Source of the DNA: Candidatus Aminicenantota bacterium
GTDB taxonomy: Bacteria > Acidobacteriota > Aminicenantia > Aminicenantales > Saccharicenantaceae
Direction: 5' to 3'
Assembly (NCBI GenBank): GCA_013178315.1
Contig: JABLWX010000006.1
Span: 1 to 53,858 of the forward strand
Length of the DNA: 53,858 nt
The translations under genes and the position numbers were made by a program. Under the pieces are notes generated by a model. That model searched no databases. It was given only the letters and a program-made list of their open reading frames with translations, and was not told the DNA's origin. Positions 178 to 14,311 of the stretch are shown here, piece by piece (within the stretch, counting starts at the first letter, position 1; each line of letters opens with the position of its first letter).

Positions 178-1290
178 ATGAAAATTTTTGACAGGAACCA
201 AACCCTGCCGCTCAGGCCCGAGCCCTTTGTCTTCCGCCTGGAATGGAAGCCCGGGGCGGACTGGGCCGGCTCAGCCCTGGAAGAAATCATTGCCGAAGCT
301 CATTTCATCCAGCTTGAGGCCGTCCAGCCCCTTGATGAGGAAGTGGTCGACCTTCTTCGGAAACTTGATGACCGGCCGGAGAAATTCAGCCTGAGGCTTC
401 TCAGCAGGGCGGAAGACTTCGGAGCAGAAACAATCAAAAAATTCATAGGGCCATTGTCGCGCCTCAAAAAGCTCGACGCAGTTATCTTTGTCATCAGTTC
501 CAGGTCTGATGAGCCCGCCCAGGCGGAGGTCAGTAGCTTGCTCTCAGCGGCAGCTTCCGCCGGTCTTAAGCCCGGCATCCTGGTTGAGCTGGAGCTAGGG
601 GCTTCGGTTTCGGGGCTTGAACAACTTATAAAAAATTTACGCCTGTCCGGCGCCATGGAAATAGCGCTCAGACCGACCAGCGCGGCCAATCCGCACCCGA
701 ATTTCGGAAAAAACCTGGCTAATTGCCTGAGCCATCTAAAGTCTGAAGGAATTCCAGTATCGCTGGAAGAGTGTTTTCCCGGGCTTGAACCGGGGCTGTC
801 CGCTTTGGAGCCAAACTGCCGTCGGGCCTTCGGCTCTTGCTATCTTGACAGCCAGGGCCGGGTCAGGGCCTGCCGGCAATCGAGGGAAATACTTGGAGAC
901 CTGAGCAGGCAGAAGCTTGAGGAAATCTGGCCCGGTTATCTTTTCGCTGAAGACCTCTGCTCCCAGGCTGCCTTAACTGTTCAAAGCCTGAAATTAGAAG
1001 AGAACGAGGCGGTCGAGGCGAACGGTGTGGCTGAAGTGGAGAATTTTTCTCCAGCCAGCCTCGACTCGTCCCTGCGACCTGTTCCACTGTTCGTTCTTAA
1101 AAAGAAAAAATGGGGCGCGGCCTTAATCAAGGGATTTGACGGGCTGGTGCTCAGCCCGAAGGGCGAGAAACTGGCCCTGATGCTTGACGGAAAGAACACC
1201 CTTCGCTCCATCAGAAAAAAATTCGGACCTCGCTCGGCGGGCCTAATTTATGCCCTGTTTCTCAGGGGATTGGTCAGGCTGGAAAAGTGA
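178..1290 (+). CDS. SPASM-like partner protein without radical SAM cluster, PqqD-like tail
   Basis: This 370-residue protein is the first gene of a five-gene operon; its stop lies 4 bp before the radical SAM gene. Residues about 205-255 resemble a SPASM segment, with Cys214, Cys221 and Cys232 followed by a GDLSRQKLEEIW stretch of the kind found in SPASM domains. The CxxxCxxC cluster motif and the GGEP motif are absent, so it is unlikely to cleave SAM itself. The last 55 residues (around LMLDGKNTLRSIRKKFG) look like a PqqD-type peptide-binding fold. Hxs systems encode paired radical SAM proteins, and this could be the degenerate partner that presents or positions the precursor. Function is inferred from context; the exact family is not recognised. 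Confidence 0.7.
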   Translation: MKIFDRNQTLPLRPEPFVFRLEWKPGADWAGSALEEIIAEAHFIQLEAVQPLDEEVVDLLRKLDDRPEKFSLRLLSRAEDFGAETIKKFIGPLSRLKKLDAVIFVISSRSDEPAQAEVSSLLSAAASAGLKPGILVELELGASVSGLEQLIKNLRLSGAMEIALRPTSAANPHPNFGKNLANCLSHLKSEGIPVSLEECFPGLEPGLSALEPNCRRAFGSCYLDSQGRVRACRQSREILGDLSRQKLEEIWPGYLFAEDLCSQAALTVQSLKLEENEAVEANGVAEVENFSPASLDSSLRPVPLFVLKKKKWGAALIKGFDGLVLSPKGEKLALMLDGKNTLRSIRKKFGPRSAGLIYALFLRGLVRLEK

Positions 1291-1294
1291 TTTC

Positions 1295-2827
1295 ATGACC
1301 AGGTACAGTCTTGATTTGAGCTTTGAGGATTTCAAAAAATCCTTTTCGCCGGATGATGTTCTCTCCACGGTTCCGGGCCTTTACTTTTCGCCTCGCTCCG
1401 GCCGCGTTTTAATCGTTGAACGCGAGAGCGCTTCCTGGCTGGTGGTGCCGCAAAAGGAATTCGGCTACCTGGTCGAGCGCGGCCTGCTGGTCCCCGGCTC
1501 CGAAGCCAGGTCGAGCCTGAAGCTCTCCGACCTGGAACCCGACCTGGACCCTGATTTTAAGGAAGGGCTTGACCGCTGGCTTTACCGGCTGTTTGTCGCG
1601 AACATGCTGGCCATTAACGGCTATGCCTATCACCAGCCCTCACGGCTCTGGGCGGTGCAGAAGTATCCCCACTATTTCAACATACACCTGACAGAATCCT
1701 GCAATTTAGCCTGCCGCTATTGCCGGGTTGGTGATTCCCCGGGCCCATTCGCCCTGATGCCCGTTGCTACCTGTAAAAAAATCATAAGGCGGGTCATAGA
1801 GGAAATCCCCGGGACCAAGATCATCATCGGTTTCCACGGTGGCGAGCCGCTGCTTAACCCTGAAGCCATTGTCGAAGGCAGCAAGTACGCCAGCGAGGTG
1901 GCCCGCTCGGCGGGAAAGGAAGTAACTCTCTCTCTTCAGACCAATGGCGTGCTGCTCCAGAAGTACAGCCAGCTATTGAAAGAACTGAACGTTGAAGTCG
2001 GGGTAAGCATAGATGGCCCCGCAGCCATTCACAACCGCCACCGCGTCTTCGGCTCGGGCCGGGGTAGCTTTGACGAGGTTATGGACGGTATCAAGGCCGC
2101 CCGCCAGGCCGGGCTGAACCCCGGCTACCTGGCCGTTATCCATGATCCAGGGGATTACCTGCCCGTGGCCAGGTTCATGGTGGAGACCCTGGGAGCCACC
2201 TCCTTCCGGCTGAACTTTTCCTGCTACGAAGGCCGGGCCAAGTCGGAACTCGACTTCAACCCCACCCGGGCCGAGGCCTTCGCCCGCAACTGGCTCCAGC
2301 TCCTTGATTTTGTCCTGGAGCACCACCGCCAGACCGGTGTCTGGCTGAGCATCGACGACCTCAACCTTTTCGTGGCCCATCTCCTGACCAAGGACCGGCC
2401 CCACATGTGCTACCGCTCTCCCTGCGGCGCCGGCAATGCCATTCTCGGCTTCGGAGCCGATGGCAAGATTTACCTGTGCGAGGAGCTGGTGGGCAAGGAC
2501 CAGTTCTGCCTGGGCGATATCGAGTCCGCCCCGCCACTTCACAGGTTGCTCGATGAGTCCCCAGTCTATGCCCTGGCCAGCGAAAGCCGGAAGGTGGAAA
2601 ATGTCCCCGCCTGCGCCGGCTGTCCCTGGAAAAGGTTCCACGGGGCCGGCTGTTTGAACAAATCATTTGAATACTTCGGGGACATCGAGCACCGCGACCC
2701 GATGTGCCATTTTTACCGGGTGATATTCGAAGAATTGATGTGGAAGCTCACCGACAGCCCGGAAATAATTAATTTGATTAGTTACTACAAAAAATATATA
2801 AAGGTTCAGAATGAGTGGTCGGCGTGA
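1295..2827 (+). CDS. Radical SAM/SPASM peptide maturase (HxsB/FxsB-like class)
   Basis: This 510-residue radical SAM enzyme probably modifies the His-rich peptide encoded next. The radical SAM cluster motif CNLACRYC uses Cys136, Cys140 and Cys143, and FHGGEPLL (GGEP at 182-185) is the SAM-binding motif. The SPASM domain starts at MCYRSPCGAG (Cys372 and Cys377) and continues through KIYLCEEL (Cys395), FCLGDI (Cys405) and a CAGCPWKRFHGAGC stretch, enough cysteines for two auxiliary clusters. Residues 1-130 resemble the N-terminal recognition region of Hxs/Fxs-type maturases. The ATG at 1295 is preferred over one at 1250 because GGAAAAG sits about 7 bp upstream and it avoids overlapping the previous gene. 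The enzyme class is sure; assignment to the cyclophane-forming group is inference. Confidence 0.88.
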   Translation: MTRYSLDLSFEDFKKSFSPDDVLSTVPGLYFSPRSGRVLIVERESASWLVVPQKEFGYLVERGLLVPGSEARSSLKLSDLEPDLDPDFKEGLDRWLYRLFVANMLAINGYAYHQPSRLWAVQKYPHYFNIHLTESCNLACRYCRVGDSPGPFALMPVATCKKIIRRVIEEIPGTKIIIGFHGGEPLLNPEAIVEGSKYASEVARSAGKEVTLSLQTNGVLLQKYSQLLKELNVEVGVSIDGPAAIHNRHRVFGSGRGSFDEVMDGIKAARQAGLNPGYLAVIHDPGDYLPVARFMVETLGATSFRLNFSCYEGRAKSELDFNPTRAEAFARNWLQLLDFVLEHHRQTGVWLSIDDLNLFVAHLLTKDRPHMCYRSPCGAGNAILGFGADGKIYLCEELVGKDQFCLGDIESAPPLHRLLDESPVYALASESRKVENVPACAGCPWKRFHGAGCLNKSFEYFGDIEHRDPMCHFYRVIFEELMWKLTDSPEIINLISYYKKYIKVQNEWSA

Positions 2828-2926
2828 GCGGTGTTTGGTAACCAGGATGGAGAAACTTCTGGCCCTGGTCTTGAATGAAAAGGGACTCGAATAAATTTTA
2901 AGAATAAAAAGGAAAAGGAGATTTTC

Positions 2927-3466
2927 ATGAAATTAAAAAAGAGAGCGAAAAATGTAGGTGCGGGACAGGCTCAACTGGCTGACCTTGGCCGGAACTTGCC
3001 CTACGTTCCGGTTAACCTGAACGACGACTCGACCCGCAGCCGGCGCCAGGCGCTGGGGTTGCTGTTCAAGGGCGCCGCTTTCCTGGCCGCCTGGCCCTTT
3101 ATCAGCAAGGAAGCCCGGGCCGGCAGGCTGAAAGAGCTGGTGGGGGAATCGGCGCCCGGCGCTGACAACCTGACCGCCCGCCAGGCCGCCAGGATCATCG
3201 GCCAGGAGGTGCTCCATACCAACGTTCCCCACAAGAACATCGCCCACCAGAACGTAGCTCACAAGGACACCCACACCAACACCCACGTCAACGAGAGCAA
3301 GCACGTGGACATGGCGCCCGAGGGCTTTGAGCACACCAACACCACCATCCATACCAACCAGAACGTCCAGGGCCACGTCAACGTTCCTCATACCGACAAT
3401 CCCCACACCAACGAGCCCCATACCAACGTGGAGCACGTCAACCGTCCCACCCAGGAAAAGGCCTGA
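2927..3466 (+). CDS. Tat-signal His-Xaa-Asn/Asp repeat protein, probable modified-peptide precursor
   Basis: This 179-residue protein follows the radical SAM gene by 99 bp, with a strong AAAAGGAG ribosome site. Residues 1-36 are a polar leader. Residues 38-43 (SRRQAL), then a hydrophobic stretch to about residue 59 and an ARA site near 63-65, form a twin-arginine signal. Residues 97-172 contain 14 histidines, and all 14 are followed two residues later by Asn (11) or Asp (3). The motifs HTN, HKN, HQN, HVN, HKD, HVD and HTD recur every 4-10 residues, most regularly every five. There is no Cys, Trp or Tyr in this part. By analogy with HxsA (His-Xaa-Ser repeats beside radical SAM genes) this is a likely substrate for His-to-Asn/Asp crosslinks. 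A plain metal-binding protein is the alternative. Confidence 0.8.
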   Translation: MKLKKRAKNVGAGQAQLADLGRNLPYVPVNLNDDSTRSRRQALGLLFKGAAFLAAWPFISKEARAGRLKELVGESAPGADNLTARQAARIIGQEVLHTNVPHKNIAHQNVAHKDTHTNTHVNESKHVDMAPEGFEHTNTTIHTNQNVQGHVNVPHTDNPHTNEPHTNVEHVNRPTQEKA

Positions 3467-4785
3467 TGGGTTTCGTCGGAAGAAAATTATTATTTGCTGA
3501 AGAAGGCCCGGTCCTTTCCGGAAAAAGGACGGCCCGGTTCAAGGTTGGTGTTATTGGCTTCTTGTTTTTCCTGGTTTTGTCCGCCGTTCCAGGAGTTACC
3601 ATGAGCCTGGCCGCAGCTCCCCAGACCGGCGAAATAACCCGGCTGGAAGCCGAAGCCACTGAACTTGAAAACCGGGCGGCCAGGTTAAAACAGGCAGTCG
3701 AAAACTGCCGCCGGAGCATCAGCCCGCAGTCTCCCGATTGCTACATCGAGATTTCCTGGCTGGGGGCCAGGGTTTCTTACCTTGAAGCTGAAAAAATAGC
3801 CGGCCAGATGGAAGAGCAGGCCCGGGACATCAGGAGACGCATAGATTACCTGAAATCGCAGCTTAACCGGCCAGCGCCGCCGCCCCCAATAACCACCCAG
3901 CCCACAACTCCTGTTTCGCCGCCAGTTACCGGCACTCCGACTACCGGCAATCAGACAGCAACCCGTCCGGTTCAAACCACGCCGGCCACCCCGGCTCCGG
4001 CTCCTCCCGCGGCTCGTCCTCAACCGTTTGAGACCAGGGTGGGCGGCCTGAGCCAGAAAGAATGGAACCGGTTGATGTCAATCCAGGAAAGGCTCGAGGA
4101 ACTCTACCGGGATTATGCCAGCTCCGACCAGGCTGAAGTCAACCGGCTTCGGGATGAAGTCTACCGGCTGTGGCAAAAAGCCGTGAGTGGGCCCCTGACC
4201 CCCGAGCAGAGGAAAATGCTCCGTCTCCGCCTTCCGTCGCGAAGCCAGCCGGCTGGACCTGTCCAGACCAGGCGCGAAGAACTTCTGGAAAAGAGAAACC
4301 AGTCAAGCCCGACGCCACCGCCCTCGCCCCTCAGCGTGGCCAGCAACCTGGTCCAGTCGCATATAGAGACCGGCGCCCAGCAGGCCCTGGATGAATTCGG
4401 CAATAACTGGGTCGATGTCATTAATGTCAGCGAGGTCGACCGCAAGTGGCTCAACTACGAAAACGTGGTCGGTTTCAGCAAGGTGACCATGAAGCTCAAG
4501 GAAAAGGATTACCCCGGGGCCATTGCCGAGACCGTCGATTTTATCGCCGGCAAGGTCATGCTCCCCCTGACTTCCATGAACGTCAGCGTCTTCAAGTCGG
4601 TCTACGGGCAGACGACCTTCGGCGCCCTGAATAAGTTCATGGAAGATTCCATGAAGATGACCGGGGCCGAGTTCAGCTACGAGGAGATGACGAAGGACAT
4701 GACCCTCGGCCAGAAGGCGGTGATGGAGTGGGTGGGCTTCGGAGAAATGATGCGGGAAAAGGACAAGGAAAGAGAAAAGAGATGA
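3466..4785 (+). CDS. Secreted or anchored coiled-coil protein of the peptide operon
   Basis: The start ATG shares one base with the precursor stop (TGATG), a mark of translational coupling. Residues 27-50 form a hydrophobic signal or anchor after a long polar N-terminus. Residues 55-130 are Glu/Arg-rich with coiled-coil character and hold two cysteines. About residues 140-185 are a Pro/Thr/Ala-rich linker. A second charged region follows, and the C-terminal part (about 300-439) is a compact domain with alternating hydrophobic and charged residues. I recognise no family. The order after the precursor suggests a partner that scaffolds or displays the exported peptide at the cell surface; this is inference from position only. 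Confidence 0.8.
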   Translation: MGFVGRKLLFAEEGPVLSGKRTARFKVGVIGFLFFLVLSAVPGVTMSLAAAPQTGEITRLEAEATELENRAARLKQAVENCRRSISPQSPDCYIEISWLGARVSYLEAEKIAGQMEEQARDIRRRIDYLKSQLNRPAPPPPITTQPTTPVSPPVTGTPTTGNQTATRPVQTTPATPAPAPPAARPQPFETRVGGLSQKEWNRLMSIQERLEELYRDYASSDQAEVNRLRDEVYRLWQKAVSGPLTPEQRKMLRLRLPSRSQPAGPVQTRREELLEKRNQSSPTPPPSPLSVASNLVQSHIETGAQQALDEFGNNWVDVINVSEVDRKWLNYENVVGFSKVTMKLKEKDYPGAIAETVDFIAGKVMLPLTSMNVSVFKSVYGQTTFGALNKFMEDSMKMTGAEFSYEEMTKDMTLGQKAVMEWVGFGEMMREKDKEREKR

Positions 4786-6137
4786 GACGGACTTCCAGAA
4801 GATGTATGGATGGTGTGGCGGCTGCCCTGGCTTCTTGCCTGCTCCTGCTGGCGGCCTCCGGAGTTGACGCCCAGGAAAACCAGCCGGGCGAGAACCTCCA
4901 GGCCAGGCTCCTGCCCGAGGTGGAGATTCTCCTTCCAGAAAACAGCCCGGTGAAGGTCAACTGGATACTGCCGCCCGTTGAGCGGGAGGCCCTCGATATG
5001 CACCTTCACGACCGCTGGTTTTCGGTCGACGCCGAAGGCTTTCCCTGGATAGGACTGGACGGGCGGCTGCTCATTAACCCCCTTAAGAATTACAGCGCCT
5101 TTTTCCCGCAGTATTTTACGAATTTCGTTCACCTCAACAACGGGGCCCTGATCATCGCCACCGAAGAAGATTTTGGCTTCATTCCCGCGGGCCAGGAGGT
5201 GGATTACGACCCGGACACCGGATATCCCGTTCTCGGCTATCAGCCCCTGGCCTGGCTGCCCGGGGAAGTTGACGGCTCCGGGGAAGAGATGGTCAGCCGG
5301 ACCATGTACCGGGGAGAGAATTGCCTCTATTTTGTGGTCAGGAAAACCGTGCCCGGCGAAGAGTACCGGGAAAAATATGAAGTTTTCTGTTTCAAGCCGG
5401 GCTCGGGCCAGAAAAGTGATCAAAGCGACCCGGATTCTTATTCAGCTTTTCCTGCCTATGTGCCAGTTTACAGCTCGGACGAGACAATAACCGCGGTGAC
5501 CGGAAACGGGGAGCAAACCTTCATCGCCCACGGCCAGATGGTCTTGCTGGTAACACCCGGTTCTACCGAGCCGGGAGTCTTTTATAACCACCCGACCGAT
5601 GTCATCCTGGCTCTCGACTACAATTCGGAAGCCGGGCTTTTTTATGCCACCAACTACTCGGTTGGCCTGATGTCGAAGGGTGCGGCCCTGGAATTCATGA
5701 GGGTGCCCTATCCCAGGATTTTCCTCCGGGACAATTCGCTCTACGTCATGCTCTCCGAGCAGGCTGCGGTCCTCCAGGTGGAGAATGCCGGCTTCCTGAA
5801 GCAGTACAACAAGACCTCCAGGGAACTGGTGGCGGTGGATGGGAAGAAGGTCTCCGGCGGCTGGTTCGGGTTCAATTTCGGACTTTTTTCCCTGGTGGCC
5901 ATTGTCCTTCTTCTATTGCTGGTCCTGGTCGATGTCCTGAGGCACCGGTTTCCCGGTCACGTCAAGACGGTCTGGGTTCTGATGGTTTTCCTGGGATACC
6001 TTTCGTTGTTTTCCTGGCTTATTGTCTTTCTTTATTTTGGCCTGGCCTTCAGGCTGAGCGGGTTCCTGGTGCTAATTCCTTTCCTGGTCATCCTGGTCTA
6101 CCTGTTTTCGGGAAGGCGACAGAGAATTAAGGACTGA
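4782..6137 (+). CDS. Exported propeller-like protein with C-terminal PLDc_N-like membrane hairpin
   Basis: The start at 4782 overlaps the previous stop by 4 bp (ATGA); an in-frame ATG at 4728 would need a long overlap and lacks a signal peptide directly after it. Residues 1-31 are a signal peptide (MRRTSRR, a hydrophobic core, then GVDA). The 330-residue extracytoplasmic part has recurring short beta-type segments and may be a propeller, but no motif proves it. The last 80 residues hold three hydrophobic spans, with VDVLRHRFPGHVKTVWVL resembling the PLDc_N (phospholipase D-nuclease N-terminal) module. The small protein just downstream on the other strand has the same module. Last gene of the peptide operon; function unknown. 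Confidence 0.82.
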   Translation: MRRTSRRCMDGVAAALASCLLLLAASGVDAQENQPGENLQARLLPEVEILLPENSPVKVNWILPPVEREALDMHLHDRWFSVDAEGFPWIGLDGRLLINPLKNYSAFFPQYFTNFVHLNNGALIIATEEDFGFIPAGQEVDYDPDTGYPVLGYQPLAWLPGEVDGSGEEMVSRTMYRGENCLYFVVRKTVPGEEYREKYEVFCFKPGSGQKSDQSDPDSYSAFPAYVPVYSSDETITAVTGNGEQTFIAHGQMVLLVTPGSTEPGVFYNHPTDVILALDYNSEAGLFYATNYSVGLMSKGAALEFMRVPYPRIFLRDNSLYVMLSEQAAVLQVENAGFLKQYNKTSRELVAVDGKKVSGGWFGFNFGLFSLVAIVLLLLLVLVDVLRHRFPGHVKTVWVLMVFLGYLSLFSWLIVFLYFGLAFRLSGFLVLIPFLVILVYLFSGRRQRIKD

Positions 6138-6147
6138 GGGATTGGCC

Positions 6148-6174
6148 GGCCATTATTAGCTGGCCTGTTTTAAT
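6148..6174. terminator. Possible weak terminator between convergent genes
   Basis: GGCCA and TGGCC form a 5-bp stem with an 8-base loop, followed by TGTTTTAAT. The position between two convergent genes fits termination, but the stem is short. Confidence 0.35.
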
Positions 6175-6197
6175 CCCTGGAAATTATTATTGTCTTC

Positions 6198-6407
6198 TCA
6201 GCCAGCGGCCGGCTTTTTAATCCTGGCCTTTTTCCCGATGATCAGGTAAAGAATTGACCCGACCAGGGGGAAGAAGATGACCACCAGGATCCAGACCAGC
6301 TTGTCGTTTCCCGGAAAGTCATGCTTCAGGATGTCTATCAGGGCGATGAGAAACAGCGGTAGCGATATCAATACCAGGATGATGAATAACTCCATAAGGC
6401 TGAACAT
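6198..6407 (-). CDS. Small PLDc_N-domain membrane protein
   Basis: This 69-residue protein has two hydrophobic spans (about 4-23 and 37-57) flanking DILKHDFPGNDKLVWIL, the signature of the PLDc_N family of small membrane proteins. AGGAGG lies 9 bp before the ATG at 6407; an internal ATG five codons on is possible but not needed. It is the last gene of a minus-strand group of three. The family's role is not well defined. The sequence resembles the C-terminal membrane hairpin of the convergent gene at 4782-6137. Confidence 0.85.
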   Translation of the reverse strand: MFSLMELFIILVLISLPLFLIALIDILKHDFPGNDKLVWILVVIFFPLVGSILYLIIGKKARIKKPAAG

Positions 6408-6445
6408 TGGCGTACCTCCTTTTTGCCTTCGCCATAATTAGTTTA

Positions 6446-7417
6446 TCAATTTTCTTTAATTCCGGCCAGGTACACGTAGTAATTCGGAATCTGGCCGAAG
6501 TATTCTCTCCTGTAAATCAAGCACAGTAAGACCGGGTATTTCCGCCCGGGTTTTAGCCTGTTCAGGATGTCCCCCCGGCTTCCGGCCAGGTGGTAGAACG
6601 GGCCGGACTTGGTCATTCCGGAAACTTCCAGAATTGTCCCGGGTTTCAGCGCTCCGGTGACCACGACCTGGGCCTCGGCCACCTGCGGCGGGAGAATTGG
6701 CCCGGGAGGAGTCAGGATCGACTGCCCGGACATCTCCGGTTCCTCAGGCGGAAGCGGGAATTCGCTGTCTGGCATGGACTGGAATTTTTTTAACTGCTCG
6801 GTAAGTTCGGCGATTCTGGCCTGGTCGCCGCGCTGCCGGTAGCGGGCTATTTCAGATTCGATGGCGAAAATCATGGCCTTCTTGAGTTCCGACCTCACGG
6901 TTAGGCCGAGGCTGCTGAGCTCGTCCTTTAAGACCGAGGCCAGCCGGGACTCGGTTCTTACCGTGGGGGCTATTTCTTTTTGCTTCGAGCCTCTCTCCCC
7001 GAAGGAGAAATATTTTTCGATTATGGAATAAAGGGAGTCCTCTTCGGCCCTGGCCGGGAAGATCTTGTTGGTCAGCGAGTAGGTAAATTTGCCCTTTATT
7101 CCCAGGTCTTTTTCCAGGTCAAAGCTAATGATGACCTTTTCCGGCATCCCCTTGCAGTCATCGGGCCTTATCCGCCTGACGGTAAATGCATAGTGGAGGG
7201 AACCATCCTGGCTTTTATTCTTCTGGCTATCCACCCGGAATGATTCCTTCTGGGTGCAGCCGTTGCTCTCCACCACGACCAGGAAGCCCTTCGCTCCAAG
7301 CAAGGCCTCGTAGAGCACCTCTTCACCCGTCCGGCGGGCATCGGGGACCTGGGCTATCAGGCCGGAAACCAGGAGAAAAATGCCGGCCGCAAGGACTATT
7401 ATCGTCTTCTTAATCAT
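6446..7417 (-). CDS. Exported protein of unknown function
   Basis: The 323-residue product has a clear signal peptide (residues 1-22, ending GLIAQ), so it is exported. GAGGAGG precedes the ATG at 7417 at good spacing. Residues about 30-140 carry beta-rich segments with two cysteines (residues 54 and 88) that could form a disulphide. Residues 155-215 are charged and helical, including RYRQRGDQARIAELTEQLK. A Pro-rich linker follows, and the C-terminal 80 residues are another beta-rich domain. I recognise no family. Its neighbours on the same strand are also small envelope proteins. Confidence 0.8.
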   Translation of the reverse strand: MIKKTIIVLAAGIFLLVSGLIAQVPDARRTGEEVLYEALLGAKGFLVVVESNGCTQKESFRVDSQKNKSQDGSLHYAFTVRRIRPDDCKGMPEKVIISFDLEKDLGIKGKFTYSLTNKIFPARAEEDSLYSIIEKYFSFGERGSKQKEIAPTVRTESRLASVLKDELSSLGLTVRSELKKAMIFAIESEIARYRQRGDQARIAELTEQLKKFQSMPDSEFPLPPEEPEMSGQSILTPPGPILPPQVAEAQVVVTGALKPGTILEVSGMTKSGPFYHLAGSRGDILNRLKPGRKYPVLLCLIYRREYFGQIPNYYVYLAGIKEN

Positions 7418-7567
7418 TCTTGCCTCCTCATCTTGTTCGGGGATTTAATCCTGGATGAATCAAAACTGAACGTTCGTAGAATATTTTGCCACCCGCATCC
7501 ACCTTCTTAACGCCTCCAGCTTTCACGGTTGGGATTTCAGCTTCATTTCCTATTTCGACCCTTCTGT

Positions 7568-8107
7568 CTATTTCGCCCCATCCTCGTAGCAGAAGAATTC
7601 GTAAATCGGGCTGCGGTTCTGGCCGTAGATGACGAAGGTCCGGCCCGGGACCGGCAGACCCAGAGAACCGGCTATCTTTTTCAACGTTTCGTACATGGAG
7701 TAAGCCGGAACCACCGGAGGAGAAATTCCGGCGTAAGCCCCGGCCAGGTAACTTTCATAGGTAACCGCCTTGCCTCCGAATCCGCCCAGCTTTCGGCATT
7801 CAATCTGGAACCAGTCGGTAAAGTTGCTGCCGTCCTTGACGAGGGCATAGCAGTCGTTGAAGGTCAGGTCGCCGGAGGCGGCTCTTAGATGGATTCTCAA
7901 TCCCCTGACCTCTCCGTCAACCACCTGGAATTTAACGTACTCTTCTTTTTCCACCCGGAATTTCCCCTCCTCCTGGAGGATCAGGTACCCGGTAAAGGAT
8001 TGATTGCCCGATTGGTTGGCTGGCCCTGGAAACAGGGGTGACCCCGCTGCCAGAAATAAGAAAACCATCCCGGCAGCAATAAGAATTGACCTCAAAACAG
8101 ATTTCAT
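7568..8107 (-). CDS. Exported protein of unknown function
   Basis: The product is about 179 residues. The ATG at 8107 is chosen because GGGAGA sits 5-8 bp upstream; the codon before it is a TTG. Residues 1-30 are a signal peptide with the hydrophobic run SILIAAGMVFLFLAAG. The mature part is beta-rich (FTGYLILQEEGKFRVEKEEY) and contains three cysteines. The C-terminal half holds an AYSMYETLKKIAGSLG helix. No family recognised. It is the first gene of the minus-strand group reading toward 6.2 kb. Confidence 0.78.
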   Translation of the reverse strand: MKSVLRSILIAAGMVFLFLAAGSPLFPGPANQSGNQSFTGYLILQEEGKFRVEKEEYVKFQVVDGEVRGLRIHLRAASGDLTFNDCYALVKDGSNFTDWFQIECRKLGGFGGKAVTYESYLAGAYAGISPPVVPAYSMYETLKKIAGSLGLPVPGRTFVIYGQNRSPIYEFFCYEDGAK

Positions 8108-8561
8108 CAAGTTCTCCCTTCGCTGGTAACTCTGGTGGAAAGCTTAAGCGAATCGCTCCCCGTGGCCCCGAGTTTATTCCTTAAAAAGTTCTTCAAATTA
8201 CTCGCTTTTCCGGCTTATTAACTCACACCTCAAGCCTGATGTCAAGGAAGGTTGGAGGCCTCGACCTGGAAGGTGGCAGTCAGGCGGACGCATTCTGGCG
8301 GGGAACGGGACGGAGAAAACAGCAGGTGAAAGTTGATAATAATAAGAATCAACAATTAGAAGAAAGAAGACAGAAAAGAAAGATCCCTGCCCAAGGGCTT
8401 GATCTTGACCACTGTGTAATGGTGTCCTGGCCGAGTGGTATGAGTATTGGTTGCATCTTCCGGGCAAGTTTCGTGGCCCGGGCCAGAGCCTTTATTTAAT
8501 AGTAGAAAACATTCGTTACGGGGAGCTTCTGCCAGGCATTTGCTGAACTTTACTGGTCGTG
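8108..8561. other. Intergenic region with no recognised gene
   Basis: This space lies between divergent genes. Short open frames on both strands lack ribosome sites, codon regularity or family resemblance. A GGCCGAGTGGT string near 8430 recalls a tRNA D-arm, but no matching T-arm or acceptor stem is present. Confidence 0.5.
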
Positions 8562-8590
8562 TTGTTTTATTCAGGGGAAGCCTCTATAAT
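8562..8590 (+). promoter_or_regulatory. Likely sigma-70-type promoter of the SHOCT gene
   Basis: A TTGTTT -35 and a perfect TATAAT -10 (8585-8590) are separated by 17 bp. The -10 ends 14 bp before the first ATG, giving a short leader that just includes the GAGGAGG ribosome site. Confidence 0.45.
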
Positions 8591-8604
8591 CAGGGCGAGG
8601 AGGC

Positions 8605-9051
8605 ATGATGAATAATCCTGAAGACCTTAACTTGAAAAATAGGAGAATCACGGTCAGGCCTTCGCCGACCAGCTCCATCATCACCCTGGTCATGAGCATC
8701 CTGTTCCTCATATTTGGAATTGTTTTCATGGGATCGGTCATGGGGGAAGCGGATGAGGCCAGGGGGCCGATGACCTTTTTCCTGGTTATCTGGATTGGTG
8801 CCTGTCTGGGTATGGCCATCTATTCGCTCGTCAACCTTTCTTCTTACGGGAAGTCAAGACCCAACCCGGCGGCCCTGGAGGTCCTGGAGGTCGAGGACAG
8901 GAAGGCCCCCGATAAAAAAGAAGATTCTGCCACGACCCGACCCGATTTCGGGGCCCGGCTGAGAGAACTGGAAGCTCTTAAAAAAGACGGCTTGCTGACT
9001 GAAGATGAATACCAGCGAAAGAGGAGAGAAATCCTTGATGAAAAGTGGTGA
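8605..9051 (+). CDS. SHOCT-domain membrane protein
   Basis: The product is 148 residues. Two hydrophobic spans (about 23-45 and 58-78) are followed by a polar linker and a C-terminal SHOCT domain: LRELEALKKDGLLTEDEY with a following RKRREIL is the typical short oligomerisation helix pair. GGAGG lies only 1 base before the ATG at 8605 and 4 bases before a second ATG at 8608, so translation may begin at the second. SHOCT domains usually form the C-terminus of small membrane or envelope proteins. The stop overlaps the start of the next gene by 14 bp, so the two are coupled. Confidence 0.85.
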   Translation: MMNNPEDLNLKNRRITVRPSPTSSIITLVMSILFLIFGIVFMGSVMGEADEARGPMTFFLVIWIGACLGMAIYSLVNLSSYGKSRPNPAALEVLEVEDRKAPDKKEDSATTRPDFGARLRELEALKKDGLLTEDEYQRKRREILDEKW

Positions 9052-10663
9052 CGGCGAATTGAACGGGAAGAAAAATCAGGCCTCAAATTTTGCCAGGAGT
9101 CTCATTTTAACGTCCCTTATTCCTTCATTGCTGATCATTTCCGCCCTGGCTTTGCCGGGGGGAATGAAAGCAGGAGACAAGTGCGCTTTTTCCGCCAGGC
9201 CGGTGGAACTGGCCCAGGATTCCCAGAAGGCAATCATCTTCCACAACAGGCAGGAAGAAATCCTGGTCCTGGCCACCGAGCTGCGGGCTGATAAGGAAAC
9301 GCAGGTTCTGGAATTCATTCCCTTTCCTGCTGAGCCTCAGGTTTTCCTGGTGAAAGAGCCCATCCTGGAAAAAGTCAGGGAACTCCTTAAGAAAAAGGAC
9401 ATAAAAGAATTGGAAGGTCCCACCAAGGGTGGGGGAGGCCTGGCCCCGGTTGAGATAAAGCTCAGCCAGAAGATGGGTCCGCATGACGTCACGGTGGTGA
9501 AAATCAACCAGCCGGGCGAATTCGAGAACTGGGTGCGGGAGTTTTTCAGGCAGAAAAAGATTCAATTAGAAATCAGGCTGGAGGGAGTGCTGGCCAACGC
9601 CCGGGATTACCTGGACCGGGGCTTCAATTATTTTGTTTTTGACTCGGTCACCGTAAGCAGGGAAACCAGGCTGGTCGAGCCGCTGGCCTACAGGTTTAAG
9701 TCGGCCGAGCTGTACTATCCCCTTAAGACTTCCAACCTGGTCGGCGGTTCCGGCCGGGTGGAGCTGGTCCTGATCCTGCCTGGAACTTTCTTCGCGGAGG
9801 AGCTGATTTTACATAAGCAGGACCAGAGGTATTTTGAGCTCTTCCGTTCCGGCTGGAGGGCCAGCTCATCTTCAAAGATGTACCCGGCCGAGCTGGGGGA
9901 GCTACTGCCGGAAGCCGCCGGGTTTTTCAAGCAGGGTCAGAAGATATACCTGCAGCTTTTGAAGTATGACGGACCTTATGATTTTAAGGATGACCTGAGA
10001 TGGGATATTTCCGGGTTGCCGCGGTATGCCTACAAGATAAGCATAAGCAGTTTTTTAGGCGAAATTCGCGAGCAGAAAATGACCGAGGACGAAATCAAGG
10101 ACTATCTCCAGGCCAGGTGCGCGGAAAATCCTAACTTTCTCAAGGAGAGCCGGGTTCTGCTGGACGAAGAGATGCTCGGCTACCTTTTGACCTCGCGCCT
10201 GACCTGCGAGGATTTTGTGCACCCGGAAGAATTCGAGGTCTACAAGGCCATTTATAATTTTAATCCTTCGGGCCTTAGCCCGGTCAGGCTGGACGGGCTA
10301 CCGACCGGGTTCGTGGTCCTGGAAGATAAGACCGCCAACAGAAAGTTTGAAAAAATAAAGGGCGTGGAGAAGGCCCTTCTCGATGATTACGACAGCAAGA
10401 ATAAAAAAGAATACCGGCTGAGCGACTTCGTGCCGGAGGGGCTGGAGGACTGTATCCAGGTCAGGCAGGGTGAGAGAGAGAACCTGCTGTCCCCAGGGAA
10501 AAATTATGTGTCACGGGTTGGCTTCAACCCTGGCCGGACGGCGGCCCTGGTCTTCGTCTCGCACGTAGCCAGCCCGGAGATGGGGGCCGGCTACTTAGTG
10601 TTGCTGGAGAAGCACCAGGGGGCCTGGACGCCGGTCAAAGTCCTCAGCGCCGAAATCTATTAA
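9038..10663 (+). CDS. DUF2330-like exported protein
   Basis: The start is set at ATG 9038, with GAGGAGAG about 10 bp upstream; an in-frame ATG at 9005 lies deeper in the previous gene. The product is 541 residues. A hydrophobic signal sequence at about residues 18-42 (LILTSLIPSLLIISALAL) is followed by a segment like DUF2330, including KAIIFHNRQEEILVLATEL and EFIPFPAEPQVFLVKEP, where the family has a similar run on reading out and protecting potentials of unknown meaning. The C-terminal 200 residues are unassigned. The product is probably periplasmic. The gene is coupled to the SHOCT gene upstream. Confidence 0.75.
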   Translation: MKSGDGELNGKKNQASNFARSLILTSLIPSLLIISALALPGGMKAGDKCAFSARPVELAQDSQKAIIFHNRQEEILVLATELRADKETQVLEFIPFPAEPQVFLVKEPILEKVRELLKKKDIKELEGPTKGGGGLAPVEIKLSQKMGPHDVTVVKINQPGEFENWVREFFRQKKIQLEIRLEGVLANARDYLDRGFNYFVFDSVTVSRETRLVEPLAYRFKSAELYYPLKTSNLVGGSGRVELVLILPGTFFAEELILHKQDQRYFELFRSGWRASSSSKMYPAELGELLPEAAGFFKQGQKIYLQLLKYDGPYDFKDDLRWDISGLPRYAYKISISSFLGEIREQKMTEDEIKDYLQARCAENPNFLKESRVLLDEEMLGYLLTSRLTCEDFVHPEEFEVYKAIYNFNPSGLSPVRLDGLPTGFVVLEDKTANRKFEKIKGVEKALLDDYDSKNKKEYRLSDFVPEGLEDCIQVRQGERENLLSPGKNYVSRVGFNPGRTAALVFVSHVASPEMGAGYLVLLEKHQGAWTPVKVLSAEIY

Positions 10664-10668
10664 ACGGA

Positions 10669-10709
10669 AACGGGGGACAAAATACTCGTTCCCCGATTTT
10701 GCTGACAAT
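10669..10709 (+). repeat. Interspersed repeat, family 2 (GGGGACA...ATACTC.TTCCCC)
   Basis: The copy starts six bases after the stop of the DUF2330-like gene. It reads GGGGGACAAAATACTCG then TTCCCCGATTTTG. A close copy lies at 36066-36108 and an inverted one at 11534-11574. The outer GGGGA/TCCCC bases can pair. It shares the GGGGACA start with the abundant palindromes further on. Confidence 0.65.
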
Positions 10710-10878
10710 TTTTGATATTCTGTTTTTCCAGCTCGCCGTTTTAGTAAGAATTATTAAAAAGATGGTAAAAAAATGTTTTAAAATTATGTCGCTCTCTTAC
10801 TTCTCTTTTGTTTAAAGGCCCCTTCTTTTCTTCTCCTGATGTTCTACTAATGCTCCGAGCCTTATCCCATCGGCTCTG

Positions 10879-11211
10879 TTATTCTATATCGTTCTTCTCG
10901 CAAAAGGTCTTGATGTTTGATTCCAGCTCCTGGGCCCGGGCGATGGCCTTTTCTTCGGTCAGGGTCGGCAACAGCTCCTTTAGCTTATTTCTGACCGCCT
11001 TAACCTGGTTTTCAGCCTTTTCCGGGTCGGAGATGACGACCAGCCCTGGTTCGGCCGCCTGGCGGTTGGCCACGATGTAATTCTGGGTGGCTGTTTGGAA
11101 CTCCTTTTCCAGGGCTATCACCGCATCTTCTTCGGGGGTCGTCTTAAAAAAATGGTCATAGGCCAGGTAGCCCGCCCCAAGGATGATTATAAGAAATAGC
11201 AATTTCTTCAC
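10879..11211 (-). CDS. Small membrane-anchored protein of unknown function
   Basis: The product is 110 residues, starting at a GTG (11211) preceded by GAGAGGGG. Residues 2-20 (KKLLFLIIILGAGYLAYDH) are a single membrane anchor. The rest is Glu/Lys-rich and helical with coiled-coil character. No family recognised. It stands alone between two repeat copies. Confidence 0.7.
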   Translation of the reverse strand: MKKLLFLIIILGAGYLAYDHFFKTTPEEDAVIALEKEFQTATQNYIVANRQAAEPGLVVISDPEKAENQVKAVRNKLKELLPTLTEEKAIARAQELESNIKTFCEKNDIE

Positions 11212-11290
11212 GCTTGCCCCTCTCCTAAAATAATTTCCATTCCAATGGGATTGTATCTTACCCCCTCCTTAATTAAAAGCGGAAATAAGA

Positions 11291-11328
11291 TGAGGGGAGA
11301 GGATACTCATTTACCTGATTTTTTGACT
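11291..11328 (+). repeat. Degenerate family-2 repeat copy
   Basis: GGGGAGAGGATACTCATTTACC and the following GATTTTTTG align with the family-2 repeat at 36066-36108, with several substitutions and a lost 3' CCCC. Confidence 0.4.
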
Positions 11329-11533
11329 CCGGTACCTCGGGCTAAGAACCTGTGTAAAAACAATTAGATTCACTTGGCTAACCCGCTAATTGAAGACTTA
11401 CTTAAGCCTATCCTCTAATCCATTCGATGGCCTTCCAAACCAATAAAAATATGCGACTTAATTTATTAACTTACCTTTTTCCTTTTTCCATTTTGTCATA
11501 GAGTTTTCTTGCGTCCTTTCCAAAACCGGCCCC

Positions 11534-11574
11534 CAAAAAATTGGAGAATGAGTATTGTGTTCCCCATTTTTTAT
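11534..11574 (-). repeat. Family-2 repeat copy, inverted
   Basis: Read on the minus strand it gives AAATGGGGAACACAATACTC, then ATTCTCCAATTTTTTGG. This matches the copies at 10669 and 36066 with a few substitutions. Confidence 0.6.
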
Positions 11575-11791
11575 GCGCCTCAATTTTTTGCCGGAACCTT
11601 CTACCCGACTATGAATAAAGTACCGGACATGCTTTTCTCCCTCTCTGGCCACAATGAACCAGGCGAATTACACCATTCCTTTTTTGTTCTTGATGGAAGA
11701 GTCGGGAGAGTGGTATGGTAATCATGAAGACACACTCTTCGGGTCTGAACTCACATTTCTGAATAAGTAATTCGAACTTGAGGAGGGAGCG

Positions 11792-13162
11792 ATGAAATCA
11801 AGAGTTTCAAGAGTGCTGCTATCGGCACTTTTAGTATTAATCGTTTTAATCATCGTTCAGGGGGCAACCCCAGAACCCCAGTTGCCAAAGGAAACCGAGG
11901 CCCAGAAGGCCCAGCGCCTGAAGTGGTGGACAGAGGCCCGCTTCGGCATGTTCATCCACTGGGGCCTCTATGCCCTGCCCGCCCGGCACGAGTGGGTCAA
12001 GAACCGCGAGCGCCTGACCAACGAGCAATACCAGAAATACTTTGAGCACTTCAACCCCGACCTCTACAACCCGCGGGAATGGGTCAGGATGGCCAGGGCA
12101 GCCGGAATGAAGTATGTCGTGATCACCGCCAAGCATCACGAGGGCTTCTGCCTCTGGGATTCGAAATACACGGATTACAAGGCTACCAGGACGCCGTTCG
12201 GCCGCGACATCCTTAAAGAATTTGTCGAGGCCTTCCGGGCCGAGGGATTGAAGGTGGGTTTCTATTATTCGCTCCTCGACTGGCATCACCCGGATTACAC
12301 CATAGACCGTTACCATCCGCTCCGGCCCGACAACGAGGCCGACTACGAAAAGCTCAATGCCGGCCGGGACATGGCCCGTTACCGCGAGTACATGAAAAAC
12401 CAGGTCCGGGAGCTGCTCACCAACTACGGCGAAATCAGCATCATGTGGTTTGATTTTTCCTTTCCGGGAAAGTTCGGCAAGGGCCGCGACGACTGGGATT
12501 CCATCGGCCTGCTGAAACTGGCCAAATCGCTCCAGCCGCATCTCATCATCGACGACCGGCTCGACCTCCAGGACGTCGAGGGCGGCTGGGACTTCACCAC
12601 GCCCGAGCAGGTCAGGGTCACCAAGTGGCCAGAATACAACGGCAAGCGAATTCCCTGGGAAACCTGCCAGACCTTTTCCGGCTCCTGGGGTTATTACCGC
12701 GACGAGTATACCTGGAAGAGCCCGGCCCAGCTCATCGAGCTGCTTATTGACTCGGTAAGCAAGGGCGGTAATCTATTGCTCAACGTGGGCCCGACCGGCC
12801 GGGGCACCTTCGACCACAGGGCACAGGAACGGCTCAAGGCCATCGGCGAGTGGATGGCCGTAAACGGCCGGTCAATCTACGGCTGCACCCAGGCGCCTGA
12901 TGAATTTGTCGCTCCGCCCAACACGCTTCTGACCTGGAATCCAGTTACCAAACGACTCTACATGCACCTGCTCTTCTACCCGATGAATGGCCTGTGGCTC
13001 AAGGATATGGCCGACAAGGTGAAGTATGTGCAGTTCCTCCACGACGCTTCCGAGATTCGCTTCCGCCCCGGCACCGGCGAAGAAGCTAACAACCTGTGGC
13101 TGACCCTGCCCGTCCAGAAGCCACCGGTCGAAATACCCGTCCTCGAAGTCTTTTTGAAATGA
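11792..13162 (+). CDS. GH29 alpha-L-fucosidase, exported
   Basis: This hydrolase releases terminal alpha-L-fucose from glycans by a retaining mechanism. The product is 456 residues. Residues 1-26 are a signal peptide. GH29 hallmarks follow: FGMFIHWGLYALPARHEW, KYVVITAKHHEGFCLWDSK (substrate-pocket histidines), VGFYYSLLDWHHPDY and ISIMWFDFSF with Asp221 as the likely nucleophile; GGNLLLNVGPTGRG closes the barrel. TTGAGGAGGGAGCG precedes the ATG. The length fits a catalytic domain plus a short beta-sandwich. A second, broken GH29 gene lies 1.2 kb downstream and a TonB-dependent receptor follows, which points to use of fucosylated polysaccharide. Confidence 0.95.
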   Translation: MKSRVSRVLLSALLVLIVLIIVQGATPEPQLPKETEAQKAQRLKWWTEARFGMFIHWGLYALPARHEWVKNRERLTNEQYQKYFEHFNPDLYNPREWVRMARAAGMKYVVITAKHHEGFCLWDSKYTDYKATRTPFGRDILKEFVEAFRAEGLKVGFYYSLLDWHHPDYTIDRYHPLRPDNEADYEKLNAGRDMARYREYMKNQVRELLTNYGEISIMWFDFSFPGKFGKGRDDWDSIGLLKLAKSLQPHLIIDDRLDLQDVEGGWDFTTPEQVRVTKWPEYNGKRIPWETCQTFSGSWGYYRDEYTWKSPAQLIELLIDSVSKGGNLLLNVGPTGRGTFDHRAQERLKAIGEWMAVNGRSIYGCTQAPDEFVAPPNTLLTWNPVTKRLYMHLLFYPMNGLWLKDMADKVKYVQFLHDASEIRFRPGTGEEANNLWLTLPVQKPPVEIPVLEVFLK

Positions 13163-13195
13163 AAAATTCTCGGTAATTTACTAACTGAGTAACGG

Positions 13196-14311
13196 ATGGA
13201 ATCAAGAGTAAGATTCTTGATAATCCTGCTGTGGATTTTGTCTCTGGTGGCGGGGTGTTCAACAGGGGAGTCTGGCCTCCAGTCGCTGGCGGCCTCGGAG
13301 CAGCCGCTTTTTTCTTGCGGCGGTGATCAATCTGGCCGTTATTACAAGTCAATTAATTTTTTAATTGGAGCCGGCGGCCGGGTCTACCTCTGGGACTCTG
13401 TAAATTTTGAAGGCCTTGACGTTTACAGTCCCGACGGGAAATTCCTTTTCACTCTTGGAAAAAAGGGACAGGGGCCGGATGAATTGCCGAATGTGGCTGC
13501 GGCGGCTGCAGATTCCAAAGGCCGTCTCTGGGTAAATGTCTTCAGCCAGAAAATGCTCAAGGTCTTTTCGCCAGACGGAAAGTTAATCCGGGAAGTGCTG
13601 CTTCCGGAAGAAATTTCCAGGGGCTATATCAACAGGATGCTCTTCGGCGCCGGCGACGAATTGTACATCCAGTCAGATTCAGGTGCCGGAGAATATTCAG
13701 TCCACGGCTTTTATCCGGAAGAGGGGCGCACCAGGCTCTTCCATGAGGAAAAGGGACGGAAGGAAGGAGGCCTGGCCCGTTTCTTTACCGACCTGGCAGT
13801 TGATGACACCGGGAAACTTTATATTTCTGACCCCTTTGATTACAGGATTTATGCCTATTCGCCGGAGGGCGTGCTCATCCGAACCTATGAAAATAGAAGG
13901 GCTAGAAAAGAACGCATCCTTGATTCAGATTTTGATATCTTAAACGGCGATTTGAACTCGGTCATAAGGTTTGAGGGTTACCGTGAAGTCCTGGCCCGGC
14001 TAAAGGGACCGTCCCGGTATTTTCCTGCAGTCTTCGGCCTCAACGCCGACCGGGGACGCCTTTACGTCTGGACCTCGCAGAGGGAAAGCAGGCTGAACAG
14101 GTACATCGTTGATATTTATGACCTGGATTTTCAACGCCTGGGACGGGCCTGCTATTTCAACTGGGTTAAGATGAACCTGGCCCGCATCGTTAACGCTCGG
14201 CTGTACATCCCGAGCATAGAAAATTATGATACCAGCCTGGTCCGGAAGCTCGGCCGGATGGGCCTCACTAACGTGCCCGAAAAACTGAATGTTTATCAGG
14301 TCAGAAATTAA
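13196..14311 (+). CDS. Six-bladed beta-propeller lipoprotein
   Basis: The 371-residue product has a lipoprotein signal (hydrophobic LIILLWILSLVAGC, Cys21), so it is anchored in the envelope. The mature part has repeated blade-type strands, for example FEGLDVYSPDGKFLFTLGKK, MLKVFSPDGKLIREVLLP and DYRIYAYSPEGVLIRTYENR, spaced as in NHL/6-bladed propeller proteins. It begins 33 bp after the fucosidase stop and is likely co-transcribed. Proteins of this kind often lie in glycan-use loci and may bind glycan or partner proteins, but the ligand is not visible. Confidence 0.82.
   Translation: MESRVRFLIILLWILSLVAGCSTGESGLQSLAASEQPLFSCGGDQSGRYYKSINFLIGAGGRVYLWDSVNFEGLDVYSPDGKFLFTLGKKGQGPDELPNVAAAAADSKGRLWVNVFSQKMLKVFSPDGKLIREVLLPEEISRGYINRMLFGAGDELYIQSDSGAGEYSVHGFYPEEGRTRLFHEEKGRKEGGLARFFTDLAVDDTGKLYISDPFDYRIYAYSPEGVLIRTYENRRARKERILDSDFDILNGDLNSVIRFEGYREVLARLKGPSRYFPAVFGLNADRGRLYVWTSQRESRLNRYIVDIYDLDFQRLGRACYFNWVKMNLARIVNARLYIPSIENYDTSLVRKLGRMGLTNVPEKLNVYQVRN

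Follow-up and report, generated by a model that had tools for sequence, protein, structure and literature searches.

Does the short operon at the start of contig JABLWX010000006.1 encode a system that cross-links an exported protein at its histidines? The window, which is the whole stretch of 53,858 nucleotides analysed here, comes from a 2.94 Mb genome whose near relatives are Candidatus Saccharicenans, including Candidatus S. subterraneus, and it carries at positions 178-6137 five genes (A to E) in a single orientation. Gene B encodes a radical S-adenosylmethionine (SAM)/SPASM maturase, and gene C, which follows it, a 179-residue protein rich in His-x-Asn/Asp (H-x-N/D) motifs. We consider, with a probability of about 55%, that this is a dedicated operon making a cross-linked exported protein, on which B would close rings between positions i and i+2 of C. 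The five-gene unit was found only in the uncultured genus Candidatus Saccharicenans.

An earlier note on this DNA had pointed out that the 14 core His of C are all followed at +2 by Asn or Asp, and this observation was fully borne out. All 14 lie within the C-terminal 85 residues, the +2 residue is Asn 11 times and Asp three times, and only two of the 16 Asn and Asp of this core stand outside the motifs. In 200,000 shuffles of the core, at most 9 of the 14 His had Asn or Asp at +2. Across the 11 genomes that carry the gene, Asn or Asp occupies +2 for 152 of 152 core His, never Ser, and beyond residue 80 the sole other His lies two residues from the C-terminus of a single protein. His columns have a mean identity of 0.98 and +2 columns one of 0.84; the x residue reaches 0.66, and spacers and leader 0.61 each. 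Variation at +2 consists of N/D exchange only, except at motif 5, where the His is lost in two genomes and the Asn is gone in both too. His codons are mixed (CAT or CAC) between genomes at 13 of the 14 motifs. Since the x residues and spacers drift and the His codons vary, the constraint acts on the protein, which indicates selection on a two-residue unit and not on a DNA repeat. That His and +2 are the most constrained positions of the core, and are lost together at motif 5, argues for a bond between them.

The second line of evidence is the distribution of the operon. Of the 19 genomes of the genus, 11 carry genes A to E, always in the same order; contig ends truncate two of these operons (D cut and E missing in G012, A cut in G018). 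B, C and E are all absent from the other eight, three of which are at least 90% complete, and E occurs only with B and C, save where a contig ends. Most of these genomes are metagenome assemblies, and the searches of the phylum are samples. C was not found outside the genus among the phylum genomes sampled (396 searched in all), and the remainder of the order yielded no B homologue at E <= 1e-40. When about 85,000 species genomes were scanned with short conserved peptides, which would miss distant relatives, B turned up only in this group. The flanking genes are common to close relatives and differ in more distant ones, and the five-gene unit stays constant. The unit proposed in the earlier note is real, and so is its strict link between maturase and H-x-N/D protein: either one without the other was looked for and never found. 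Both the exact co-occurrence of B and C and the fixed gene order despite changing flanks, with E following the same pattern, support the cross-linking system proposed here.

We also looked for H-x-N/D repeat proteins widespread without radical SAM neighbours, and saw none in the regions inspected. A DNA pattern of three H-x-N/D motifs with a spacing of five matched 67 of 297 phylum genomes, and at the 14 places inspected no H-x-N/D repeat protein adjoined a maturase. These matches proved to be DNA tandem repeats, off-frame or overlapping open reading frames (ORFs) or unrelated proteins; one region has a radical SAM-like ORF several kb off, with the pattern there outside any repeat protein. Many further matches are His/Asp-rich stretches, which were not inspected singly. 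Distant radical SAM relatives elsewhere in the class (genomes L040 and L041; 26-30% identity) had no H-x-N/D protein in the neighbourhood seen. L040 carries two tandem intact radical SAM/SPASM genes (7217-8743 and 8753-10309), both with a C-x4-C-G-x-G SPASM start as in B (CMRSLCGAG and CMRSNCGCG), and L041 has several such genes clustered beside microcompartment-like genes (2723-8191); no precursor was recognised at either place.

All five ORFs exist. C and D overlap by 1 base and D and E by 4 bases, and on account of these overlaps the genes look co-transcribed and translationally coupled. Only 177 bases of the contig precede the operon, which puts its left flank beyond the window. The start of B is most likely at 1295, since Met16 of the listed ORF, which begins at 1250, is invariant in 11 of 11 relatives and the residues upstream of it are variable; the start of E was corrected to 4782, overlapping the D stop. 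The features are as follows.

178-1290 (+): gene A, 370 residues; radical-SAM relative without CxxxCxxC, with a SPASM segment and a possible PqqD-like (RRE) C-terminus
817-960 (+): SPASM segment of A, residues 214-261; three of the four invariant Cys inside, Cys199 just upstream
1069-1287 (+): possible PqqD-like recognition domain of A, residues 298-370, from the strand/helix order of an AlphaFold2 model and from hhalign
1295-2827 (+): gene B, 510 residues; radical SAM/SPASM maturase (PF04055, 1.7e-22)
1700-1723 (+): CxxxCxxC radical SAM cluster motif of B (CNLACRYC), Cys invariant in 11 of 11 genomes
2408-2707 (+): SPASM region of B, Cys387 to Cys486
2639-2641 (+): codon of His464 of B, at the ligand position of auxiliary cluster II (Aux II) where Cx2Cx5Cx3C would have its third Cys; the same in all 11 genomes
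2927-3466 (+): gene C, 179 residues; H-x-N/D repeat protein, probable substrate
3035-3124 (+): signal of C resembling those of twin-arginine translocation (Tat), residues 37-66; SRRQxL, hydrophobic stretch, ARA
3215-3442 (+): core of C, residues 97-172, with the 14 H-x-N/D motifs
3466-4785 (+): gene D, 439 residues; hydrophobic start resembling a signal, linker rich in Pro, conserved domain at the C-terminus; no family
4782-6137 (+): gene E, 451 residues; signal, predicted beta-propeller, three predicted transmembrane helices

By its family, B appears to be a peptide or protein maturase, and a member of no named one. No NCBIfam model covers B at its cut-off, and none matches C. The highest scores of B (cut-offs in brackets) are with DynA, 147.9 bits (450), HxsB, 140 (370), PapB, 130.5 (340), and CbpB, 127.3 (375), all peptide maturases, which favours a peptide-modifying role. 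The cyclophane makers YhhB, AmcB, GrrM/OscB, FxsB and XyeB score weaker and far below their cut-offs. Among solved structures, 5wgg comes closest (106 bits), followed by anaerobic sulfatase maturases and ChlB. No signal of a PqqD-like domain was detected at the N-terminus of B, and a defence-system reading was rejected, as the PADLOC matches reach only the radical SAM core of viperins.

The earlier note credited B with all its cluster motifs. The CxxxCxxC motif and the first SPASM half (C-x12-G-x4-C) are indeed intact, but the block that follows reads CxxC-x5-H-x3-C, where His464 takes the position of the third Cys in every one of the 11 genomes. In PqqE, the Aux II ligand equivalent to Cys326 of anSMEcpe is Asp319, which ligates the cluster (PMC5715301); B resembles PqqE in having a non-Cys residue at the same position and differs from it in that this residue is His. 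A His at this position was not found in the literature searched, and it is possible that His464 is a ligand of the auxiliary cluster.

The only Pfam match of A is SPASM (PF13186, 11 of 11 genomes). Its Cys199, Cys214, Cys232 and Cys261 are invariant, which by sequence would be enough for one cluster. In the AlphaFold2 model (mean predicted local distance difference test score 74; our structure models were built on 9-11 sequences), the N-terminal part is beta/alpha barrel-like and Foldseek retrieves TIM barrels, radical SAM proteins included, and in the C-terminal part strands and helices follow one another as in a PqqD-like domain. This part has no Pfam match; hhalign against PqqD gave a probability of 31%, and 0 of 200 column shuffles were as good. 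Outside the genus, the SPASM segment of A matches radical SAM-type genes and, in the genomes with listed PqqD matches, 13 of 28 such matches have a PqqD gene at a distance of about 0.9 kb. We infer that A is a catalytically dead partner of radical-SAM type that may carry a recognition domain. A recalls the PqqE/PqqD pair in its SPASM segment and possible PqqD-like domain; unlike in that pair, the domain would be fused to a protein without a SAM cluster, and there is no pyrroloquinoline quinone (PQQ)-type precursor.

Several features point to the envelope as the destination of C. Its SRRQ is invariant and is followed by a moderately hydrophobic stretch, the starts of D and E being more hydrophobic and Sec-like, and TatC is present in the genome of the window. 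No signal profile matched C. The SRRQxL motif and TatC make Tat export of C likely and support the system as proposed; the Tat route would suit export following cytosolic modification. D begins with a hydrophobic stretch, followed by a charged region (possible coiled coil) and a Pro-rich linker, and ends in a conserved domain; it has no convincing family. The model of E shows a signal peptide, a beta-propeller and three transmembrane helices, and Foldseek retrieves clathrin, SMP30 and Pizza6 propellers. Both look like envelope proteins and probably hold or use the product there. Phage families gave no match for C, D or E, and a plasmid search none for C.

We propose that B would abstract, in the cytosol, a hydrogen atom from the beta carbon of the Asn or Asp of each motif, and that the radical would couple to the imidazole two residues upstream to form a three-residue ring, up to 14 rings per chain of C with two H lost at each. 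The catalytically dead A would help B, probably by docking the leader of C, and the Tat-like signal in this leader would lead to export of the modified chain, which would work in the envelope together with D and E.

This chemistry has close precedents. The triceptides include links from His C2 to Ala (HaaB and ScaB, on His-Ala-Ala), from His C2 to Arg together with Tyr to Arg (YhhB), from Tyr to Asp (YxdB) and from Trp to Asn/Asp (OscB), and enzymes of the superfamily also join Asn/Asp to a Trp, Phe or Tyr that stands two residues before it (PMC11002830). A Tyr/His-Asn-Arg repeat precursor, uncharacterised, is also on record (PMC9062424). The published His to Ala/Arg and Trp/Phe/Tyr to Asn/Asp links favour the i-to-i+2 ring on C. 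As in the triceptides, a radical SAM/SPASM enzyme stands beside a precursor with repeated aromatic-x-X motifs, and His donors and Asn/Asp acceptors are each known separately (PMC11002830). Unlike in the triceptides, His is paired here with Asn/Asp in about 14 motifs of a 179-residue protein carrying its own signal, a dead radical-SAM partner gene is present, and one SPASM Cys of B is replaced by His. The earlier note took the H-x-N/D version to be probably undescribed: His i/i+2 cyclophanes and Asn/Asp acceptors are in fact published (PMC11002830), and what would be new is their combination, about 14 times on an exported protein, not the class of chemistry. A His-to-Asn/Asp cross-link was not found in the literature searched, outside which lie most subscription papers, including J. 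Am. Chem. Soc. 144, 11580. This last is said to be the main 2022 triceptide paper and could list such precursors.

A comparison with Hxs systems was made using four true Hxs loci of the same phylum as controls. In these loci the H-x-S motifs recur with a spacing of three, the repeat protein starts with a signal-like N-terminus, and both radical SAM genes have CxxxCxxC; true HxsB of the phylum score 395-629 bits against the TIGR03978 cut-off of 370. Like them, our operon combines an exported-looking His-x-polar repeat protein with a radical SAM gene resembling HxsB and another gene related to radical SAM proteins. However, it has Asn/Asp instead of Ser, a wider spacing, an A that is inactive by sequence and no HxsD, and B has the full first set of SPASM Cys, which the HxsB sequences checked lack. 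Membership of Hxs was rejected on every defining feature tested (score, motif, partner genes and SPASM cysteines). The best reading is that the system works like triceptides and Hxs, yet is not a member of Hxs. A true Hxs locus (L074, 3256-4545) has two H-x-S proteins, one of which is exported-looking, with 314 residues, the repeat in mid-protein and then a further domain. No description of an Hxs product was found in the literature searched.

Some points weigh against the cross-linking of C by B. The modification is predicted from sequence, B falls short of the cut-off of each family, and some of its best-scoring models describe enzymes of different chemistry (thioethers, sulfatase maturation). 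The proposed link is without precedent in the literature searched, 13-14 rings on one chain would be many, and the Tat reading of C and the PqqD-like reading of A draw on weak signals.

It is possible, if unlikely, that B modifies the H-x-N/D sites otherwise, by a bond from His N to Cbeta, bonds between motifs, a backbone bond or epimerisation. DynA, the top model for B, belongs to the pathway of dynobactin, in which a His N is bonded to a Tyr Cbeta (PMC11002830); as in DynA/DynE, the pair involving His would be i/i+2, but the precursor there is a short antibiotic and not an exported repeat protein, and B is 300 bits under the cut-off (NF041298). Bonds between motifs would fit a His-His spacing of 5 in 8 of the 13 gaps. 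However, the spacing ranges from 4 to 10 and +2 is held as strictly as His, which argues for a bond inside each motif.

Metal binding is common among exported proteins rich in His. C could be an exported metal-binding or structural repeat protein that stays unmodified, with B acting elsewhere and the operon merely co-regulating the two, and the phylum has many His/Asp-rich stretches that lack a radical SAM neighbour. We find this improbable, given the exact co-occurrence of B and C and the fixed gene order in 11 genomes. In addition, Asn, a poor metal ligand, predominates at +2, and Glu, Cys, Ser and Gln never replace it where the His is kept. A divergent Hxs system (B as HxsB, A as HxsC, C as HxsA) is highly improbable: HxsB is the second-best model for B, aligned over most of its length, and true loci share the second radical SAM gene and the signal-like N-termini, but B reaches 140 of 370 bits, no Hxs model matches A, C, D or E (for A, HxsC included), A is without CxxxCxxC, and the motifs have Asn/Asp with His mostly 5 apart and not 3.

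Sequence divergence is uneven across the operon. Between the window and Candidatus S. subterraneus (L031), identity is 89.6% over A-B (105-2822) and 99.6% from the precursor on (2972-13479), the D and E proteins being 100% identical. In the comparison with L030, identity is about 96-99% in the flanks and drops to 79-94% over 1000-5500. These profiles suggest either a recombination spot or fast-evolving spot, or else a mosaic assembly. Downstream, a small PLDc_N-type membrane protein (6198-6407, minus strand) is convergent with E and similar to its membrane tail (26% identity, E 4e-6), as if E had gained this tail from a PLDc_N-type gene. Two further proteins (6446-7417 and 7568-8110, both minus strand) form one family, have no Pfam or PHROGs match and adjoin the operon in most relatives carrying it.

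Returning to the proposed ring-forming operon, we tentatively envisage a new class of ring-studded exported proteins, with about 14 His-to-Asn/Asp cyclophanes, a His-ligated auxiliary cluster in the maturase and, paired with this enzyme, a dead radical-SAM subunit carrying the recognition domain, forming a rigid and possibly metal-binding envelope component and not a small antibiotic; we hold this extended picture to be possible, if unlikely. If the ring chemistry is true, His-to-Asn/Asp would join the known radical-SAM peptide cross-links, set many times along a full-size exported protein, and a structural or metal-binding role would be likelier than that of an antibiotic. The strict motif and the short operon make the system directly testable. 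The invariant His that occupies the Aux II ligand position, like the dead radical-SAM subunit, would bear on cluster tuning and substrate recognition by SPASM enzymes, and the system may also help to explain the related Hxs system.

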